The notes beneath the pieces were generated by a model. It was not told the origin of the DNA. It did not search any database and was given only the letters and a program-made list of their open reading frames with translations. The position numbers were made by a program, and so were the translations under genes. A stretch of 23,695 bases of DNA from a virus. Location of the stretch: positions 1 through 23,695 of the IMG/VR virus record IMGVR_UViG_3300017598_000324, one strand, 5' to 3'. Below, one piece after another: positions 5,202 through 23,695 of this stretch (the first letter of the stretch is position 1; every line of letters starts with the position of its first letter).

Positions 5202-5834
5202 ATGGCATTTCCTGACTTTTCAGATTTGCTTTCACGGGTTAGAGATCTTCTTGGTGAATCGTCAGCCGGGTTTTATACTGATGCTGAAATCAAGAGATGG
5301 CTCAATGACGGTGAAACAGACGTTGCAGTCAAGTCTTTGTGTATTGAGAGTGTCGAATCCAAGACAGCGACAATAAATACAAGAACGGTTGCGACTGATT
5401 ACGTTAAGGTCCATGCTGTTGAGTACGTCCCGGCTTCAGGCGATCCAAGAGGTTTGATCAAGATCACGCCGAGGCATGTTGGGCATTATTTTGATTCTGG
5501 AACTGAACCGCAAGCATGGTTTCCATGGGGGCAGACAACCGGAATTGAGCCCATACCGATTGCTGAATACCCTTTAAATGTTTATTGCTCATCCATCCCG
5601 TCTGCAAGGATGGCGAATGATACGGATGAACCCAAAGTCCCGTTGGCGTTCGTGCCTTTTATTGTGCAATTTGCTTACATTCGGGGGCTTTACAAAGACA
5701 GACTATTTGGTGTAGCGGCTGCTGAATATAGGTCTTACATTGCAAATTTGCAAGTAATGCGTGACAGCATCATAAAGAAATATGCTGAGTTATACGAATC
5801 TGCTCTTACACCTGTAAGGGTTGTCGAGGTATAG
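5202..5834 (+). CDS. Head-tail adaptor (gp4-like), first paralogue
   Basis: This 210-residue protein has the helical adaptor signature FYTDAEIKRWLNDGETDVA (around W33). It continues with beta-rich middle strands (KVHAVEYVP, LIKITPRHVGHYF) and a closing helical region (FVPFIVQFAYIRGLYKDRL). The next gene encodes the same architecture with clear residue-by-residue similarity, so the two arose by duplication. Proteins of this kind form a ring that joins the portal to the tail hub. It begins two bases after the previous stop, with GAGGG upstream, and ends exactly where the next ATG starts. The call as adaptor is firm at family level; which paralogue contacts the portal is unknown. Confidence 0.8.
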   Translation: MAFPDFSDLLSRVRDLLGESSAGFYTDAEIKRWLNDGETDVAVKSLCIESVESKTATINTRTVATDYVKVHAVEYVPASGDPRGLIKITPRHVGHYFDSGTEPQAWFPWGQTTGIEPIPIAEYPLNVYCSSIPSARMANDTDEPKVPLAFVPFIVQFAYIRGLYKDRLFGVAAAEYRSYIANLQVMRDSIIKKYAELYESALTPVRVVEV

Positions 5835-6461
5835 ATGAGCTACACATTGTTAGAACTTAGAACCCGGATTCGAGATATATCCAACGATAAGAACGCAACC
5901 ACTATACCGTATTTCGTGTCTGACGCTCAATTAAACCGATGGATCAACGATGCTGAACGGGATATAGCCGAAAAAGCGTTGTGTATCAATAACATAGACT
6001 CATTAACAACGACTGCGGATACGAGGGCGGTTGCATTCTCAGGGCATAAAGTTGTTTATCTTGAACATTTGATTAGCACAACGGAGGGGCTTGGATTAAG
6101 AAAAATCGATCCGCTTCATGCCGGGAGACAACGGCAAGAAGGAACAGGGCCCCAAAAGTGGTTCGAGAGTAGCTCGAATATTTATATGGAGCCGATTTTA
6201 ACAGCAGAGAGCAACTTAAAGGCCTATATCGCTGATGTCCCATCTGCTGAAATGTCTGCAGATGCCAACACCCCTAAAATACCGGACTCATATCAACTAC
6301 TGATTATCCTATATGTGTTTGAAAAAGTGCTGAAGAAAGAGAAACGGTACGGACAGGCAGCACAGATAAGATCGATCTATGATAATGAGTTGTTCCATAC
6401 TTATTTAGATAAGACTGCGATCATCCCTAACAGTTACGATGAGATTGAAAATGGCAGATAA
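5835..6461 (+). CDS. Head-tail adaptor (gp4-like), second paralogue
   Basis: This is a 208-residue paralogue of the preceding protein. The segment FVSDAQLNRWINDAERDIA (W36) aligns with FYTDAEIKRWLNDGETDVA upstream. The shared order continues through LCI, a DTRAVA/NTRTVA strand, a WF motif in the middle, and a PSAEM/PSARM segment followed by a helical C-terminus. The ATG follows the previous stop with no gap, with GAGG a few bases upstream. Two consecutive adaptor rings, or a heteromeric ring, would explain the pair. The 3' end overlaps the tail-hub gene by 11 bases. Confidence 0.8.
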   Translation: MSYTLLELRTRIRDISNDKNATTIPYFVSDAQLNRWINDAERDIAEKALCINNIDSLTTTADTRAVAFSGHKVVYLEHLISTTEGLGLRKIDPLHAGRQRQEGTGPQKWFESSSNIYMEPILTAESNLKAYIADVPSAEMSADANTPKIPDSYQLLIILYVFEKVLKKEKRYGQAAQIRSIYDNELFHTYLDKTAIIPNSYDEIENGR

Positions 6462-10409: not shown

Positions 10410-10835
10410 ATGAAAAGAATGTCAAGACAAGAGTTTTTGGAAAGAAATCAAGCTGAAATGAGGGCAAGAAAGATATACGTTCCTCATATCACAAAAAATA
10501 TATCGATTTCTTTTGATATATACATAAGGGTTTTAGCAGAACAGGAGCATGATCGTTTTATTAATAATGCGACAACGAGGAGAAGTCCTATAGACGGGTA
10601 CATAAGGCCGAAATGCCCGGAATGCGACACAAACTTTATGTTAAGGATTATTGCTGAACCAAAAGGCAAAAACAATGTTCATGGTTATAAAACTTGTTGG
10701 GAATGTCCGATTTGTGGGCATGAAGAATATAGCACAAGAACCATTAATGACTGGATAAAAGAATTAAAGATGGAAGAAAATACCCGCAAGGAAAGAGACG
10801 CTTATCCATGGGGGTGTTGGAAAACAATAGAATAG
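10410..10835 (+). CDS. Zinc-ribbon phage protein
   Basis: This 141-residue protein has C69-X2-C72 (KCPECD) paired with C96/C99 and C102 (TCWECPICGHEE), a layout typical of a zinc ribbon. The N-terminal 65 residues are helical and charged; the C-terminal tail is also charged and ends with a PWGCW phrase. It begins two bases after the stop of the cysteine-rich gene. The AGGAG site of the following gene overlaps its own stop codon region. A structural or assembly role is likely from context; nucleic-acid binding is possible but not shown. Confidence 0.72.
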   Translation: MKRMSRQEFLERNQAEMRARKIYVPHITKNISISFDIYIRVLAEQEHDRFINNATTRRSPIDGYIRPKCPECDTNFMLRIIAEPKGKNNVHGYKTCWECPICGHEEYSTRTINDWIKELKMEENTRKERDAYPWGCWKTIE

Positions 10836-10845
10836 GAGTAAGAAA

Positions 10846-11529
10846 ATGGCTACCAATTATGATTCATTACCTGGATATGGAACGACTCAAACAAAAATTG
10901 CGAATCTTCAAAGGGGGAAAAGATCTGCTCAAAGCGATAGAGATTGGGCGAGTTTTGGGAAGAACCTTAGCGGACGTACAAGCGTTCCGGATCCTCGCGG
11001 CGGTGGGCCAGGAATGGAAATTCGTGGTGGTCGTGTTGTTCAAACTTCAGCCTCTCGTCCATGGTGGGAAACAGAAGCAGAGGGGGGGGCTGTTGGATAT
11101 GGTATGCCATTGGGAGTTACTCCAAGTCGTGAAAACATCTCACGCCCAACGGCCCCGACTATGCCGACCTTTAAAGCACCGACTTATGATGAAGGGGAAG
11201 TCAAGTCTCTCGCCCGTAAGCATTCTGCACCTCAACTCACAAAGTTAAGGGAAGCAGTCCAAACTGCCACCTCTGCAAGCAGGTTTGAGAACCCGAACGT
11301 TCAGAGAATGACGCTAAGAAGCGCCCTCGCCGGCTACGGTGAAGGGTTGGGGGCTGTTACCGGGGCTGCTGATGAATCCGCAAGGCGTGAATACGGACAA
11401 AGGTATGCGCTTGAACAGCAAGAGGCTTTGACAAATTATCAAGCCCAAAGAGCTGTAGTCATGCAAGATTGGCAAAATGCTTGGAGCCAATATAACCGTG
11501 CTTTAGATATGAGTACACCGAGATATTAG
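10846..11529 (+). CDS. Probable internal virion protein, small
   Basis: This is a 227-residue protein with AGGAG at 10834-10838. The N-terminal half is low-complexity and flexible, rich in Gly, Pro, Ser and Arg (PDPRGGGPGMEIRGGRVV). The C-terminal half is helical and rich in Ala, Gln and Arg (EGEVKSLARKHSAPQLTKLREA; YALEQQEALTNYQAQRAV). It sits directly before two larger helical proteins, an arrangement seen for the internal, ejected proteins of short-tailed phages. No enzyme motif is visible. A run of eight G residues (11082-11089) lies in the flexible part and could cause slippage or sequencing error. Confidence 0.6.
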   Translation: MATNYDSLPGYGTTQTKIANLQRGKRSAQSDRDWASFGKNLSGRTSVPDPRGGGPGMEIRGGRVVQTSASRPWWETEAEGGAVGYGMPLGVTPSRENISRPTAPTMPTFKAPTYDEGEVKSLARKHSAPQLTKLREAVQTATSASRFENPNVQRMTLRSALAGYGEGLGAVTGAADESARREYGQRYALEQQEALTNYQAQRAVVMQDWQNAWSQYNRALDMSTPRY

Positions 11530-11538
11530 GGGGGTAAG

Positions 11539-12666
11539 ATGCCTAAATCACAAGAGTATATCGATTCGTGGAATAGATCAAGAAGGGTGGGAGAGTATGA
11601 CCCTGACTTTGATTTTCTGAAAGAGCAAGAGGCTTTTGCTTATCCCGAGGTAGGATCTGAGGAAGGCCCTGCGGCTATCGGTGGAATGCCTGACGTTTCC
11701 CCTACGGGTGATGTGGGTGGTGGAAACACTTTAAGGGATTACATCGAAAGAATGAGAGCAGAAGGCAAAACACCGACTTTTACAAATATCGAGGGATCGA
11801 GCGCTTTTTCTGATATGCCAGAGGAAGATGTTTACACGGAACCTGAATACCGTGAAGGGCCGATGGGACAAATGACGGATTTACGCCCGAAACCCCCTGA
11901 AGGTGCTGTCCCTACCGTGTTTGATCGTGAAAAATTCCTCGAATCTGCTATGCAACAGGTTGGTAATCCAAATGAGTTTAATACTGAAAAAGAACTCCAA
12001 AAACAGATGATAACACAGGAACCTGATGCGTTTGAAAGGCTATTCGGATATAATGTTTCTTGGGAGGACAGAGACAAAATAGGTGATGAAGCCAACCGAA
12101 GATGGCAAGCTGAACAATTGAAATTAAGGGCAAGAAAACGGGCAGAGCTTAAAGAGCAAAAAATTAATATGGTGAATAGGCTTAATCAAATGATGCAAAT
12201 GTTTGATGCAAAAGCCGAACATACAAGAAGGATGAGGGAGGCTGAACGCACAAGAACAAAAGAAGTCCTAACCGCCATGACAGAAGCCGAAGAAAAGAAA
12301 CAGAAGCAACTTGATGATGATCTTGGAAAACGTTCTGAATTAATTCAGGAAAGAGATGCCATTAAACTGGATGTGCTTGACCGTGGGGAAGAAGTCCCGA
12401 ACGATGTTAAGGCTATTGCAGCTTCATCAGTTAAGGCCATAGAGGATCAAATCGCTCGTATTGAGAAAAGAATTGCTAAAAATCAACCAAAACAGAAAGA
12501 GAAAGAAGGTTCAAAGGTTCTTGATCGTGAATCTGTGAAGCCGTTTATCAAACAGGCAAGAGATAAATTTACAAAAGACGGTCGGTCAAAAGAATGGATA
12601 GCAGCGAATAAAGAAACCGTTACAGCATTCGCTAGAAAACTTGCAAAACAAGCAGGGTATAAATAA
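11539..12666 (+). CDS. Probable internal virion protein with coiled coil
   Basis: This is a 375-residue protein preceded by AGGGGGG at 11528-11534. The first 115 residues are acidic and proline-rich and are probably disordered. From about residue 160 to 320 it is almost entirely charged helix and coiled coil (KLRARKRAELKEQKINMVN; ERTRTKEVLTAMTEAEEKK). The C-terminal 45 residues are basic and helical (FIKQARDKFTKDGRSKEW). It overlaps the following 1094-residue gene by one base (TAATG). By architecture and position it may be an ejected core protein or a scaffold for the larger neighbour. No family is recognised. Confidence 0.6.
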   Translation: MPKSQEYIDSWNRSRRVGEYDPDFDFLKEQEAFAYPEVGSEEGPAAIGGMPDVSPTGDVGGGNTLRDYIERMRAEGKTPTFTNIEGSSAFSDMPEEDVYTEPEYREGPMGQMTDLRPKPPEGAVPTVFDREKFLESAMQQVGNPNEFNTEKELQKQMITQEPDAFERLFGYNVSWEDRDKIGDEANRRWQAEQLKLRARKRAELKEQKINMVNRLNQMMQMFDAKAEHTRRMREAERTRTKEVLTAMTEAEEKKQKQLDDDLGKRSELIQERDAIKLDVLDRGEEVPNDVKAIAASSVKAIEDQIARIEKRIAKNQPKQKEKEGSKVLDRESVKPFIKQARDKFTKDGRSKEWIAANKETVTAFARKLAKQAGYK

Positions 12667-15600
12667 TGGATTTATTTGATCAAGCATTTGACGAGGAATT
12701 CGGCTCTCAGGACGTAAGTGGTTTGCCTGAAGGATACGACATATTTGATTCGGTGTTTGACGAGGAGTTTGGTGGAATCGGAACCGATCAATACCCGGAA
12801 GTCGGTAAGAGATTTGCTGATCTTGTCGCTCCTTCTTCTTCTATAGTTCCTTTCTCGGTAATCGCCAGGGCTGTTCGTTCTGGATGGGGGAAAGCATACG
12901 AAAAAGGATGGGTCCCATTAACTCCTGAAAGAGGCGCTGGAAAAGCGGTTGAGTCTCTTAAAGAGATGGTGAGATTTCCAACTGTAGGAAGCCTTGCAGC
13001 AATTGAATCCGCAGGGAAAAGTATGCAGGAAGAAAGACGGCAAATGAATTTCCCTGAATTATACGCAAGCCTGTCTCCTGTAGATCGATCAATGATTGGG
13101 CCGATGATAAGTGATGCAGAGCTAAGAAAAGGGATGCCGTTGTCAATGGATGAAAAGCGTGAAATTGCATCCACGTTTAACGAAGGGAAAACAGAAGACT
13201 ATATTGAAAATGCCAAGAAAGCCCGTGAGTTTATCCAGAAAAAGCTAAAGACAGATCCCGCTTATTTAAAATCTACCGGGTACATCGAAGATGCCATTGG
13301 TGTCGGTGGACAGGTTGGAGGGGCGATTCTTGCGAGTGTCGTTGCCGGTCCTTGGGCTGGCGGTACGTTCATGGGGGCGTACATTGCCGGGGCTACTTAT
13401 GAAAATCTCACAGAGCAGGGGGTTGAGCCTGACCGGGCTATTAAGTGGGGAATTGCTAATGGTATAATGCAAGCGCCTTTTGAGGCATTTGGATTGTCGA
13501 AAGTCGCAAAATTATTCAAGGCAAGAAAGGCTTTGTTCCAGGCTGTTAAAGATCTTGGTTTCGCTGGTCTTGCGGAATGGACAACAGAGTTTATTCAGGC
13601 AATACCCGAATCGATTACGGATATATTTGCTAAAAATCCTGATAAAACTGCTCTTGAGAATTGGACACAGGTTTATAAAGATTTACCCAAAACTTTAAAA
13701 CAAGGGATGTATGAAGGTTTGGTTGTTCTTCCTTGGACAATGTTTTTCGGTGCGGGTGGTATTGCAAGAGGTGTTCATATTGATAAATGGGAAAAATATG
13801 CTGTTAATTATTTAAATGATGAAACAAAGGCAGAATGGGAACGCATTCAAAAACTTCCTGAGTCCGAAATGAGTCAAGGTGATAAATATCAATGGCTACA
13901 AGATCAAGCGAATGCTGCAAAACAAGCCGAAGACATTGAACAACCTACGATAGAGTCTCCTGATGGCGAAATAACCCCCGAAAAGCTAAAGGAATTGTAC
14001 GCAGCCGGTGAAATCTCTGACGCAGATTTAATCAAGACAAAGGAAACCCTGAAGGACTACCCTGAAGTTGTGGCAATGGTTGACGAGATTCTTGCAGGGA
14101 AACCGGAAGTCGGGGAGCCTGCGAAAGAGGACAATACAACCAACCGGTTAAACGCAATTGCCGATAAGATTGAAAAGGGTGAAACCGAATGGTCAAAAGA
14201 GGAACTTCAGGATCAGGCGATTTACACCGATGAGCTTGAAAAGATTCTTCAGGAACGTAAGGTCGAACCTGCGAAAGAGCCTGAAAAGCCTATTCCTGAA
14301 AAAGCACCAACAAGATTTGAAGGCGAACTTGACGAAGAACAACAAAGGCGTGAGATCAAGCGATTAGAGAAAGGCCCGTCCAAGGAAGAAATCGAGGCCC
14401 GAGCAAAAGAAACAATGGAGGCTGCGAGGAGGAGGCGTGAAGCCGAAGGAGTTGCAGAAAGGGCCGAGATAGACGATGCTAAGAAACGGTTAGATGAAAT
14501 CAAAAAGGGGAATATTTTAGCTTCTCAAAATGAAATCAATCGCTTGGAAGAAATCGCTAAAAAGAGAGAAAGGAAGGCTGAGGAGCCCGTTAAACCAGAA
14601 GAAGGCGAATTAAAAGAAGCTGGTAGATGGGTTGAAAAGAAAATTTCCCTTCCCCAAAAGGAAATAACGGAAGCTGTCGAAAAAGTTGAACCTGTTGAAA
14701 TTAAAGAAGAAAGAATTCCTGAAAAGGAAATAACCCCACCTGAAAAGGAAATTTCCCTTACTAAAGAACCGTGGAAAGGAATTCTTTATAGAGGAAGCAA
14801 TGTGACGGGAGGCCGTGGCAAATCCTATACAATTAGCGAAGATTATGCAAAAGGTTATGGGAAAAACATTAGACAAAACAAATTAAAGCCTGGCTCAAAG
14901 GTGCTTGTCCTTGCTGAATATGATGAAGGATTAAAGGGGTGGACTGACAATGAAAAAATGGATGAACATCGAACAGAAGGAGACTTTGCCCCAACCTATG
15001 CAAACTTTGATAGTAAAAAAGAAGAAGAACTTTTAAATAAAGGTTATGACGCTGTTGTTTTCGCTGATGAAGGTGAACTTGAAATAAGGATTTTAAATAA
15101 AGAATCAATAGAAAAACCGACTGAAGCTGTCATAAAAGAGGAAGTGGCTGAAAAACCCAAAGTCGAGGAAAAGCCCGAAATTGAATTTACCGGATGGATG
15201 GAAGGTTTTAAAGATAGACCCTCTTACCCACAATTTACATTTACAAAGGGTGAAATTCAAACAACTATTTCTCCCGAACAAATGGCGAGAGATTACGGCG
15301 TTAAGCCTGAAGATTTACCTAAATATCCTACGATTGAGGAATGGAAAGCAGAGGAAAAAAAGAAGTTTGACATGGTTCTTGAGAAAATAGAGGCGAAAGA
15401 ACCTTTAACTGACGAAGAAGCCATAATAAAAAACAGGCGTTATGCCGAACTTGAAGCTGAACTCGAAAAGCGCAAGACTGAAAAGGCGCCCACCCCACTG
15501 CAAAAAGCTGCTCAAGATGAATACGAACAACGGACTGGAATGGATATTTTTAGATCCGATACAATGATTGACAAAATATCCGAAAAGCTTGGATTGTCTT

Positions 15601-15950
15601 CATTTGAGTCAGCGTCACTTTTAAAAGGATTAAGAGAAGAAAAAATAGATGAAAACGACATAAAACTTTTGTATGAGAAAATCCCAACATTTGATGAATA
15701 TGTGAAAATATTTGGGGCAATGACAAAGGGTGAAGGGGCAATAGATTTTTTAAAGAGAAGATACGAATCTTCAATTGGACGAATAAAAGAGAAAAAACCC
15801 TACGATAAATTCAAAGGTGTAATGGTAAAAGTAAAAGGCATTGATGAAGACATGAATGTTTATGAGGTCGAAGAAGACGCTGCAATTGCGTTAAAAGATA
15901 TAGACAGTAAAATCGAAACACTAAATAAATTAGTGGAGTGCGTAAAATGA
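12666..15950 (+). CDS. Large internal virion/polyvalent protein with ART-like domain
   Basis: This 1094-residue protein starts with a duplicated motif, LFDQAFDEEFG (3-13) and IFDSVFDEEFG (26-36). Two Gly-rich hydrophobic segments follow, at about residues 210-245 (GGAILASVVAGPWAGG) and 350-368 (VVLPWTMFFGAGGIA), which could contact membrane. A long Glu/Lys/Pro linker (about 430-700) leads to an ADP-ribosyltransferase-like domain at about 700-812: Y708-R709-G710, then SYTISEDYAKGYG (720-732), then E804-L-E806. This order matches the R-S-E layout of ART toxins and of the ART domains known in polyvalent proteins. A further domain (EFTGWMEGFKDRPSYPQF) and coiled coil follow. AGGG lies eight bases before the ATG. 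Delivery with the genome is inferred from context; catalytic activity is unproven. Confidence 0.7.
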   Translation: MDLFDQAFDEEFGSQDVSGLPEGYDIFDSVFDEEFGGIGTDQYPEVGKRFADLVAPSSSIVPFSVIARAVRSGWGKAYEKGWVPLTPERGAGKAVESLKEMVRFPTVGSLAAIESAGKSMQEERRQMNFPELYASLSPVDRSMIGPMISDAELRKGMPLSMDEKREIASTFNEGKTEDYIENAKKAREFIQKKLKTDPAYLKSTGYIEDAIGVGGQVGGAILASVVAGPWAGGTFMGAYIAGATYENLTEQGVEPDRAIKWGIANGIMQAPFEAFGLSKVAKLFKARKALFQAVKDLGFAGLAEWTTEFIQAIPESITDIFAKNPDKTALENWTQVYKDLPKTLKQGMYEGLVVLPWTMFFGAGGIARGVHIDKWEKYAVNYLNDETKAEWERIQKLPESEMSQGDKYQWLQDQANAAKQAEDIEQPTIESPDGEITPEKLKELYAAGEISDADLIKTKETLKDYPEVVAMVDEILAGKPEVGEPAKEDNTTNRLNAIADKIEKGETEWSKEELQDQAIYTDELEKILQERKVEPAKEPEKPIPEKAPTRFEGELDEEQQRREIKRLEKGPSKEEIEARAKETMEAARRRREAEGVAERAEIDDAKKRLDEIKKGNILASQNEINRLEEIAKKRERKAEEPVKPEEGELKEAGRWVEKKISLPQKEITEAVEKVEPVEIKEERIPEKEITPPEKEISLTKEPWKGILYRGSNVTGGRGKSYTISEDYAKGYGKNIRQNKLKPGSKVLVLAEYDEGLKGWTDNEKMDEHRTEGDFAPTYANFDSKKEEELLNKGYDAVVFADEGELEIRILNKESIEKPTEAVIKEEVAEKPKVEEKPEIEFTGWMEGFKDRPSYPQFTFTKGEIQTTISPEQMARDYGVKPEDLPKYPTIEEWKAEEKKKFDMVLEKIEAKEPLTDEEAIIKNRRYAELEAELEKRKTEKAPTPLQKAAQDEYEQRTGMDIFRSDTMIDKISEKLGLSSFESASLLKGLREEKIDENDIKLLYEKIPTFDEYVKIFGAMTKGEGAIDFLKRRYESSIGRIKEKKPYDKFKGVMVKVKGIDEDMNVYEVEEDAAIALKDIDSKIETLNKLVECVK
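12672..12773 (+). repeat. Duplicated FDEEFG peptide motif
   Basis: Codons for LFDQAFDEEFG (12672-12704) and IFDSVFDEEFG (12741-12773) form two similar copies 23 residues apart at the extreme N-terminus of the large internal protein. The DNA copies differ at several silent positions, so the conservation is at protein level. Such an exposed, repeated acidic-aromatic peptide may be a docking tag, but no partner is known. Confidence 0.75.
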
Positions 15951-19978: not shown

Positions 19979-20244
19979 TGTATTTTATTAAATCAGGGGG
20001 CATCCCTAAATACGGGCTTCCTCTTGGGGGATGGCCTAAATATGGCATTCCTGGCGTTCCGGATATACCTGAAATACCGTCAGGTGGAGCAACTCAACCT
20101 CGTAGGGGCAGATATGAACCCAAGTATTATAAAGACCATGAATTACTTGAGGCTCTTGAAGAATTTAAACGCAAAAAAATAATCAGGGATGATCAGGAAT
20201 TTATGGAATTATTAACCATGATATTAAAGTCAGGAATATTATAA
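19978..20244 (+). CDS. Small Gly/Pro-rich phage protein (88 residues)
   Basis: The start overlaps the fibre stop (TAATG at 19976-19980) and the stop overlaps the next start in the same way. The N-terminal 40 residues are Gly/Pro-rich with a repeated PKYG phrase (IPKYGLPLGGWPKYGIPG) and an IP repeat (GVPDIPEIPSG). The second half is a charged helix (LLEALEEFKRKKIIRDDQEF). The first part may be an extended binding peptide and the second an oligomerisation helix. It is possibly a fibre-tip or adaptor protein; no family is recognised. Confidence 0.65.
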   Translation: MYFIKSGGIPKYGLPLGGWPKYGIPGVPDIPEIPSGGATQPRRGRYEPKYYKDHELLEALEEFKRKKIIRDDQEFMELLTMILKSGIL

Positions 20245-23200
20245 TGGCATCACTTGCGAAATGCTTAGACAAATATAAGGCCGAGCTAACCCCATACGAT
20301 AAAAGCCAGATTGAGAAATATGCAAAAGCGTATCGTGATGAAGGGTATAATGCCAAAGAATCTAACCAAGGTGGTATTAATGACTATATCGATTCTCTTG
20401 TAGAGGAATATGATGGCATAGTTGAACAGGTCGAGGTCAAGCTAAAAGAACCCGAAAAGGCTAAGGTTGTTGAAGAAGTATCTGGAATAAAAGAAAAAAC
20501 AGTTTCAGTTGAGATGACAAAGGCCGAAGAAAAAGCTCTGTCTCCAAAAGAACAAAAAGCGTACCTGCTCGAAGAAATCGACAAGGCGATTGAGGAGGCT
20601 CCTGACAAGACTGTTGAAATCGCAGGTAAACACGCTACGGACAAAAAAGAAGCTGAAGTTTACAAAAAAAACATGGAAGAAATCGGCACAGTAACCATTG
20701 AAGTCCCTGACGATGGAGTGTTTAATATCTTCAATGCCAAGCAAGCATTGAAAGACTTCAAGAAAATTGCAACTAAATTCCCGGTTACAGAAGGTGGAGT
20801 TCAAAAACCAAGAGTTGCGACAACAAGACCGAGTGAGAAACGGTTGGTTGATTTTGTTGGATATTATTATCACGATTATAGTGTCAGAAAAGAAGACATC
20901 CTATTCGGAGAAGAAGACTCAAATTATTACACAGACGGATTTTATTCCAATGGAATGTATTTTGTTAAGACTGACAAAAAGCCCGTAATTAAAGGAAAGG
21001 GCAAAAAATATAACGAAAACAATCCTGACATTAAATCTTTAACAAAAGGAAAATCAGTAAAAGGAACAATAGAGGGTGAATCATATGATAATCGTTATGC
21101 TACCGACACTCCAACTGTAGTAATTGCTCATGTAACTACAAAAAAAGGAGATCACTACGGTTTTAACGCTGCATTTGTAGATTCCATCCTTACAAAATTC
21201 CCCGACGCAAAGCCGTACATAACAGAAAACGGAATTATGCTGTTTAAGGATGCTGATGGGAATGTTGTTGGTGGCATGATGCGGATTAAAATCGGTGATG
21301 GGAACACCCTGTCAGACATGACCCCTGCTATCCAAGAAGGGTATGCGAAAAAACATGGAATAGAGGAAGTTGCTGAAGTTGCTGAAGTTGCAGAAGAAGC
21401 TGAAGCAGAACTAGAAATTGAAACCCCCGTAAAAAAAGTAACCACACCAGAAGAATTCATTGAAATCGTAGAGGGCAAGCAAGACACGTTTAAAGGTAAG
21501 GAAGCAAGCCAATTAAGAAAGATTCTTGCGAATATATATGGCAAAAAACTGAAGGTGGATTTTCCTAACGCCTTTAAATTGCTAAAACCTGAAACTAAGC
21601 AAGAAGAAGAAATTGAGAAAGTTTTGGCAAGGCTTGGGACACGGGTTGTTTTTGTTGAAACATTTGGCCCGGACAAAATGAGGCAAATTGGGGGACTTTC
21701 TAAAATATTAAGCAACATCGTTGTTATACAAAAAAACCCACCAAAAAGAGGGGAAGGGAAATCTAACAAAGTAGTTTACCTTGCCGGACATGAATTTTTA
21801 CACACATTAGAACTCCAAAGACCAGACCTTTACAACAAGTTAATCGACAAATTAAAAAATAACAAAGCCCTTGGTTTTGAAAAATATAAAGAAAAGCGCT
21901 TGAAACTTGACAAAGAGGTTGGTTTAGATGAAATAGGCGAAAAAGCATTGTTTGAAGAGTACATAGCAACTTTTACGGGGTTGCAGTTTACCAATAAGGA
22001 GTTTGTAGATGAGCTATTCAAGGATGATCCGACCTTTGCGGAAAAACTCGTTAAATTATTCAAGGATATATTGGATAGGATCTATTACGCCCTGTCAAAT
22101 TCAAGGGAGGACTCACAGTTTTTCGAGGATGTTGTCCAAGCCCGTAATGCCGTTGCGGATATTATCAGGGAGTCAGGTAAGGATATAAGCGGAAACCCTG
22201 AAATATTAGAGAGCGAATACACCGCAAGCCTTAGTGCTGACACTTTCGCTGAGGCATGGCACAGTCAGATGAGTAATTTCATAAAGGCCAAGTTAAGCAA
22301 GACGGGTTCTCCTAAAGAAATCATCCAGAACTTGAAGTCATGGGCAAAGAAGGGGTTAATCAAAGAGGATGAGCTTTCATGGAGTGGTGTTATCGATTGG
22401 CTTGAAACCACAGATTTTAAAAAACTACATGACCAACAAGCAACAACTGAAAACATACGTTCTCAAAAAGAGTTTGACCCATTAGGTATTATTACACGCA
22501 AGTATGATAAAGTGTCTCCGTTGGGGAACAAAGTAACAAAACAGGACGTGCTTGACTATTTGGCAGAGAACAATGTGCAGGTTGAGGAGGTTGTTAAGGG
22601 TGAACAAGAAGTTTGGGATATTTATGTAGATGGCGAACCGGCTATTCTTGATCAACCAAATAGACAGGTAGCGGAAATAGCGTTAAAGACAGAAATCAAA
22701 CAAGGGTTCATTGCAGAGGACGCTAAGACAGACATACGATCAAGGAAGGCGAAGGACGACACCAAATTCGCCCGTTCCGAATTAAACGTCCCCGGTGGCG
22801 AAAACTACAGGGAGCTTTTGCTGACGTTGCCTTTACCTGAGGTTGGTGTAAAAGAGAAAAAAGAATGGGAAGAAAAAATTAAAAAGAGACTTGAAAAAGA
22901 ACACTTTACATTTGAAGATTTAACAGATGAAGAAGTTGACGCATGGGCTAAAATCCCAAAAAGAAAAGGGACACAAGTATTTAAATCACCCCATTGGGAC
23001 GAACCCAACGTATTAGCCAGTGTCAGGTTTGATGAGCGCACAGGCCCGAACGGTGAAAAGATCCTATTCCTTCAGGAAATACAGAGCGATTGGCATCAGA
23101 CGGGGCGCAAGGAAGGATATAGGGTAAAATCTTTTGATGAATGGATGAAAGGGCTTTCCACAGGACAAAGAGGACCAGATATTGAGTATCTAAAAAAGAG

Positions 23201-23695
23201 ATATGAACAATATAAACAAAATGTTTCATCTATTCCTGATGCTCCTTTCAAGAAAACATGGCCCATGTTAGCCGTAAAGCGCATGGTGCGTTATGCTGCG
23301 GAGAACGGTTTTGATCAGTTAGCTTGGACACCGGGGGAGGTACAGGCTGAACGGTATGATTTAAGTAAAAGGGTTGAAATAGAACATAACAAAAGACCAG
23401 ATGGCAAATATTGGGTTTTTGCTAAAGAAGCAGATAGTGGCAGGGACGTTTTTGAAAAGGTTGTTGAAGAAAACGAGCTTGAAAATATAGTGGGTAAAGA
23501 AGTAGCACAAAAAATAATTGACGGAAAAGGTGAATCGGCAGAAACAGAAACAGATAAAAGACTAAAAAAACGTGGCGAAGTTGTTAGGATTTTCAAGAAG
23601 GGTGACAGATGGTTTCATGAATTTGAAGATAAAACAACAATGGGAACTTGGTTGACAAAAGAAGATGCTGAAGCTGATTCAAAACGCCTTTCAGA
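20244..23695 (+). CDS. Giant polyvalent protein with zinc metallopeptidase domain (partial)
   Basis: This frame stays open to the right edge, giving at least 1150 residues with the C-terminus missing. AGGA eight bases upstream supports the ATG, which overlaps the previous stop. Residues 1-60 are helical (LTPYDKSQIEKYAKAYRDEG). An alpha/beta region spans about 195-352. A metallopeptidase domain at about 390-620 contains H516-E-F-L-H520 and, about 50 residues later, FEEYIATFTG (E571/E572), a plausible third zinc ligand. A helical domain follows at about 665-785 (LSWSGVIDWLETTDFKKL), then a domain near 850-1040 with SVRFDER, EIQSDWHQTGRKEGY (945-959) and FDQLAWTPGE. This architecture matches phage polyvalent proteins, which are injected with DNA. 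Peptidase substrate and activity are unknown. Confidence 0.82.
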   Translation, partial: MASLAKCLDKYKAELTPYDKSQIEKYAKAYRDEGYNAKESNQGGINDYIDSLVEEYDGIVEQVEVKLKEPEKAKVVEEVSGIKEKTVSVEMTKAEEKALSPKEQKAYLLEEIDKAIEEAPDKTVEIAGKHATDKKEAEVYKKNMEEIGTVTIEVPDDGVFNIFNAKQALKDFKKIATKFPVTEGGVQKPRVATTRPSEKRLVDFVGYYYHDYSVRKEDILFGEEDSNYYTDGFYSNGMYFVKTDKKPVIKGKGKKYNENNPDIKSLTKGKSVKGTIEGESYDNRYATDTPTVVIAHVTTKKGDHYGFNAAFVDSILTKFPDAKPYITENGIMLFKDADGNVVGGMMRIKIGDGNTLSDMTPAIQEGYAKKHGIEEVAEVAEVAEEAEAELEIETPVKKVTTPEEFIEIVEGKQDTFKGKEASQLRKILANIYGKKLKVDFPNAFKLLKPETKQEEEIEKVLARLGTRVVFVETFGPDKMRQIGGLSKILSNIVVIQKNPPKRGEGKSNKVVYLAGHEFLHTLELQRPDLYNKLIDKLKNNKALGFEKYKEKRLKLDKEVGLDEIGEKALFEEYIATFTGLQFTNKEFVDELFKDDPTFAEKLVKLFKDILDRIYYALSNSREDSQFFEDVVQARNAVADIIRESGKDISGNPEILESEYTASLSADTFAEAWHSQMSNFIKAKLSKTGSPKEIIQNLKSWAKKGLIKEDELSWSGVIDWLETTDFKKLHDQQATTENIRSQKEFDPLGIITRKYDKVSPLGNKVTKQDVLDYLAENNVQVEEVVKGEQEVWDIYVDGEPAILDQPNRQVAEIALKTEIKQGFIAEDAKTDIRSRKAKDDTKFARSELNVPGGENYRELLLTLPLPEVGVKEKKEWEEKIKKRLEKEHFTFEDLTDEEVDAWAKIPKRKGTQVFKSPHWDEPNVLASVRFDERTGPNGEKILFLQEIQSDWHQTGRKEGYRVKSFDEWMKGLSTGQRGPDIEYLKKRYEQYKQNVSSIPDAPFKKTWPMLAVKRMVRYAAENGFDQLAWTPGEVQAERYDLSKRVEIEHNKRPDGKYWVFAKEADSGRDVFEKVVEENELENIVGKEVAQKIIDGKGESAETETDKRLKKRGEVVRIFKKGDRWFHEFEDKTTMGTWLTKEDAEADSKRLS
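21366..21392 (+). repeat. 9-base tandem repeat in linker of polyvalent protein
   Basis: Three units of GAAGTTGCT, the last ending in A, encode EVAEVAEVA at the start of an acidic linker just before the metallopeptidase domain. The repeat keeps the frame. The linker continues with EEAEAELEIE and separates the N-terminal alpha/beta region from the peptidase domain. Confidence 0.85.

Follow-up and report, generated by a model that had tools for sequence, protein, structure and literature searches.

A phage polyvalent protein combining a zincin-like metallopeptidase domain with a GNAT-like module

According to Iyer et al. 2017, in the sections drawn on here, the zincin-like metallopeptidase (MPTase) domain is the commonest domain of phage polyvalent proteins, and either self-processing or attack on host proteins has been proposed as its function (PMC5512222). 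Two examples from those sections behave differently: the polyvalent protein DdrB of phage P1, which contains the domain, undergoes processing ahead of packaging, while the N4 virion RNA polymerase, which also carries one, is packaged unprocessed and needs its MPTase region for encapsidation (PMC5512222). Since the N4 polymerase enters the virion uncut, self-processing before packaging is not general. The present analysis concerns a giant gene for which a first-pass annotation had suggested that the peptidase may free individual domains after ejection or attack host defence proteins. The idea is sound, but both functions already stand as predictions in the consulted sections of PMC5512222.

The window, meaning the whole stretch of DNA analysed, comprises 23,695 bases and is identical to the complete virus record (G000). 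As the record ends at base 23,695, it contains no downstream sequence of the giant gene, and it is probably a fragment. The plus strand holds the long non-overlapping frames of the window, and among them the 5' part of the gene occupies 20244-23693, with an ATG at 20244 and 1150 codons that run to the end of the record without a stop. This bears out the earlier description of a frame of at least 1150 residues cut by the window edge; relatives of the same polyvalent type range from 1200 to more than 5000 residues. When the 1150-aa protein was searched against Pfam, PHROG and NCBIfam, no model recognised any part of it, and single-sequence scans with the whole protein and with the peptidase domain separately confirmed no close relative. 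Taken with the family evidence below, the product is a phage polyvalent protein with a zincin-like MPTase domain of the type described in the consulted sections of Iyer et al. 2017 (PMC5512222).

Four stretches can be distinguished along the chain, all encoded on the plus strand. Residues 1-85 (20244-20498) form a short N-terminal domain that is 33% identical (E ~1e-5) to the start of a 4186-aa frame at locus L152. They are followed by residues 86-441 (20499-21566), a charged linker and a region without relatives, parts of which were searched against viral contigs, phages and PHROGs with no match. Within this region, a suspected likeness of residues ~277-352 to the C-terminal domain of sliding clamps found no support, the only rows returned being streptokinase at E 0.02-0.05. 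Residues 442-643 (21567-22172) make up the zincin-like MPTase domain, and residues 655-1150 (22206-23693) a module named here for its EIQSDW motif.

The MPTase domain was recognised from two short motifs, HEFLH at residues 516-520 (21789-21803) directly after VVYLAG at 510-515, and FEEYIATFTG some 50 residues on at 570-579 (21951-21980), all of which were verified at these positions. HEFLH supplies two predicted zinc ligands and a putative general base, E517, and among the HExxH motifs in all six window frames it alone neither contains a stop codon nor has one a few residues away. Shuffling the protein 5000 times produced an HExxH somewhere in 1.9% of cases and never the two motifs correctly spaced. 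More weight attaches to the conservation seen in relatives. When viral contigs were scanned with the C-terminal portion of the protein, 49 loci emerged, and four giant frames among them (the non-redundant L006, L014, L029 and L041) also gave matches to the window protein's peptidase region. Both HExxH and EE are invariant in these four, which were found via the C-terminal module with neither motif used as query. A profile scan in which the EE motif, and not HExxH, was part of the search pattern added 17 more loci. The final set consists of 16 distinct sequences (alignments A1 and A2), with relatives 20-29% identical to the window domain. Across all 16, the residues G484, G515, H516, E517, H520, E571, E572, G579 and F587 are invariant, and residues ~442-643 belong to a domain family of giant phage frames in which G-H-E-x-x-H and, 48-56 residues on, EE never vary. 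Poor conservation of HExxH among homologues was looked for and not seen. Above its cut-off, Pfam recognises neither the window domain nor the other four members of A1; a search of the phage database with the peptidase domain alone gave nothing better than E 1, and a search of bacterial genomes with narrow patterns of low power found no relatives.

In M48 peptidases the third zinc ligand lies in an E-x-x-A-D pattern, and thermolysin-type enzymes have a related E-x-x-x-D; the Asp four residues after the Glu ligand supports a zinc-binding His. Because of these patterns, E572 is more likely than E571 to be the third ligand, judging from the alignment. The family resembles the M48 (Ste24/HtpX) and thermolysin-type peptidases in having HExxH and then, about 50 residues on, E-x-x-x-D spanning E572 and position 576. 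The motif reads EE[FLY][ILV][AG]D in 15 of the 16 members, whereas the window alone reads EEYIAT, with Thr576 in place of Asp; the combination of HExxH and E-x-x-x-D thus fits 15 members and fails in the window. The family further differs from M48 and thermolysin-type enzymes in giving no sequence match to them and no significant fold match (ZMPSTE24 at E 0.2). With Thr where its relatives have Asp, the window copy may be a weak enzyme.

A model of the peptidase domain built on the family alignment has a mean pLDDT of 81.5. Contrary to the concern that the two histidines might not share a helix, the model puts both on one confident helix (model residues 68-84) and the EE pair on a separate helix (125-140), the block pLDDT being about 90-95 for both. 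Polyvalent MPTases are characterised by an N-terminal helix and a sheet of three strands ahead of the HExxH helix; on this side the model has a short N-terminal strand, a helix at 11-22 and strands at 26-32 and 51-55, with low confidence across 37-63 and for the strands that precede the HExxH helix. Among solved structures, Foldseek and VIA-align against the PDB gave no significant match; the PDB rows were unspecific helical proteins such as helicases and globins (Z of at most 6.3). In BFVD, five matches at E<0.001 were obtained, all to large phage proteins that are mostly of the polyvalent type; they include an LT_GEWL protein, an AdoMet methyltransferase protein, a PolyVal ADP-ribosyltransferase and an LPD protein. 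Motif invariance in the family, the helix model and the BFVD matches together support the initial assignment of a polyvalent protein with a zincin-type domain.

The partner domains point the same way. The L014 frame carries GGDEF and RadC; that of L059 carries AAA_34, Helicase_C_4 and 2H; that of L060, SNF2/Helicase_C and LPD38; those of L061 and L063, ART-PolyVal; and that of L041, LPD38 with helicase pieces. Fusion to several unrelated domains in a large protein of a mobile element, which marks a polyvalent MPTase, is therefore found here. The family shares with the MPTases covered in the consulted sections of PMC5512222 the HExxH helix, a later helix with the putative acidic ligand, the setting in giant multi-domain phage proteins, the shuffled position and the same partners; unlike one widespread phage subfamily described there, the window domain lacks an Asp three residues after HExxH. 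A link of the MPTase to the EIQSDW module found no mention in those sections of PMC5512222.

Gene context ties the window to its nearest relatives (L057/L014, L055 and L063), in which homologues of the window genes 10846-11529 and 11539-12666 stand in the same order directly upstream of the MPTase-bearing frame. In the window this place is taken by a companion 1094-aa frame (12666-15950, plus strand). The N-terminal third of this companion shares homology with the N-terminus of the giant protein that bears the MPTase in L057/L014 (residues 8-368 against 72-412, 26% identity, E 8e-15). Since the L057 frame with the MPTase begins with this homologue, what is one protein in L057 corresponds to two genes in the window. 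Residues about 707-814 of the companion (LYRGSN...SYTISEDYA...GELEIRIL) show by eye an R-S-E pattern of ADP-ribosyltransferase type, with no database match. In L055/L056 the MPTase lies in a 1214-aa frame at the position of the window's 12666-15950 frame, apart from the largest polyvalent frame. The 4186-aa frame (L152:76-12633), a later frame of the L055/L056 phage, opens with the 85-residue N-terminal domain of the window protein and contains a GNAT domain (a weak Pfam match), ART-PolyVal, RadC and two EIQSDW modules. As the MPTase sits in different frames of related phages, the peptidase moves between their polyvalent proteins. Elsewhere in the window, the adjacent frames 5202-5834 and 5835-6461 both match the structural family phrog_399 and are probably a tandem duplication; 2095-2835 weakly resembles sulfotransferases (Sulfotransfer_4, E 1.2e-4, narrowly missing the curated cut-off); and 10410-10835 encodes a small protein whose cysteines (CPECD...CWECPICG) are arranged much as in a zinc ribbon and which has a weak Lar-like restriction alleviation match (E 0.036).

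The C-terminal module was originally described as domains of LSWSGVIDW and EIQSDW types that recur in polyvalent proteins. Their recurrence holds, with profile matches at more than 50 loci, but they are not separate domains: LSWSGVIDW, at residue 711, and EIQSDW, at residue 945, both belong to one module of about 495 residues. The loci include the Dolichospermum phage Dfl-JY45 and a Pseudomonas aeruginosa plasmid protein; in the latter species the module is seen at L004:6001-6885, in a very large plasmid-encoded protein whose product is named LPD23 domain-containing. In an alignment of 30 sequences (A3), the E, Q, S and D of EIQSDWHQ are invariant, as are further polar residues, and the window copy ends before the conserved GGEGMKGFYDKILP element seen in relatives. 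Pfam searches with the module, its consensus included, returned no fitting family and no GNAT match, and a literature search for the motif found nothing.

A structural model of the module (mean pLDDT 68, core near 85-92) suggests, at medium confidence, a resemblance to GNAT acyltransferases. GNATs rank first in Foldseek at E 0.05, which is not significant, and the 50 best rows of VIA-align are without exception GNAT-type acetyltransferases (Z 6.5-8.1). Since VIA-align listed a mixture of unrelated proteins when given the peptidase model, this agreement is informative, although below certainty. The order of strands and helices fits GNAT, and in A3 numbering Q298-x-G-R-K-x-G304 resembles the acetyl-CoA loop Q/R-x-x-G-x-G/A, the match not being exact. 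The module differs from GNATs in an insertion that separates the putative CoA loop from the next helix, in giving no Pfam GNAT match and in a model pLDDT of only 68; to our knowledge, its strictly conserved E-x-Q-S-D and other polar residues are not known from GNATs. Phage GNATs offered no source for a profile, as too few relatives of the L152 GNAT were found, and the putative acetyltransferase of Pelagibacter phage HTVC028P has no Pfam GNAT match.

In the window protein, a gap of about 13 residues separates the peptidase domain from the GNAT-like module. The peptidase likewise stands directly before an EIQSDW module in L006/L066, L059, L060 and L069, the gap being about 8-25 residues across these proteins and the window; in other members it lies elsewhere in the chain or in another gene. 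A varying position, often directly before the same module, is as expected of a shuffled processing module. Among 49 proteins, an HExxH occurs just before the EIQSDW module in 14 and just after it in 15, chance being ~7% per stretch, an enrichment that is not used as proof because some loci were fetched through the peptidase.

On balance, the predicted zinc metallopeptidase of this polyvalent protein most likely cuts the giant chain between its domains, and we hold this reading to be somewhat better than evenly supported. The giant protein would be made with the late virion genes, probably to be packaged and to enter the host together with the DNA. Virion-structure matches near the gene are few, consisting of phrog_399 and a weak phrog_2941 in the window and of phrog_18802 and the tail-fibre-assembly phrog_863 in relatives, so that delivery with the DNA is argued from analogy. 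Late expression and packaging are suggested in part by the gene order of HTVC028P, where genes next to the module-bearing gp34 are annotated as encoding tail tubular and internal virion proteins. Residues 442-643 would then act as a zinc metallopeptidase in which, going by the invariant pattern and the predicted model, zinc is bound by H516, H520 and most likely E572, with E517 as the residue that activates water. During assembly or after ejection and entry, we infer, the peptidase would cut the chain between domains, and its neighbours, the GNAT-like module for example, would thereafter act separately.

The peptidase could instead be an effector that cuts host proteins, such as those of defence, after ejection, with the rest of the chain serving for delivery or other attacks. 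Such a role has been proposed for some polyvalent MPTases in the consulted sections of PMC5512222, and it would suit both the adjoining ART, GGDEF and helicase domains, which presumably act on the host, and the separate 1214-aa protein of L055/L056. No host substrate is indicated, however, and processing accounts at least equally well for the direct linkage of the peptidase to the following module that recurs in several relatives. Because of this linkage to one module, self-processing is rated above host attack, which we consider rather unlikely. Thr576 brings in another reading, in which the window domain is no longer an active peptidase and plays a structural or packaging role. The window is the sole member of the 16 with Thr for the Asp of EExxAD, and the MPTase region of the N4 virion RNA polymerase is needed for encapsidation in a protein that stays uncut (PMC5512222, consulted sections). 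Loss of activity is kept under consideration because of T576, yet it is improbable for a copy that keeps all putative zinc ligands and the general base. A metal-dependent HExxH protein other than a peptidase, for instance an oxygenase of the ChlB HExxH type, is highly improbable, since the Foldseek rows for 8s5f that would suggest it (E about 0.5) are not significant, the peptidase ZMPSTE24 ranks higher, and every significant structural relative is a segment of a large phage protein.

Self-processing, if correct, also bears on the module that follows the peptidase. As a tentative proposal, which we think possible without expecting it to hold in full, the EIQSDW module would represent an undescribed, widespread class of GNAT-fold acyltransferases with a CoA loop split by an insertion, delivered by polyvalent proteins of phages and plasmids and freed by the directly preceding metallopeptidase. 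Polyvalent MPTases as such are already described in the consulted sections of PMC5512222, and the GNAT-like reading of the module is the part that specialists may find new. For a class of phage proteins with predicted and hardly tested peptidases, the analysis contributes a subfamily together with its alignment. One of the common unassigned polyvalent modules also receives a structural hint, and both the peptidase and the module thereby become testable.
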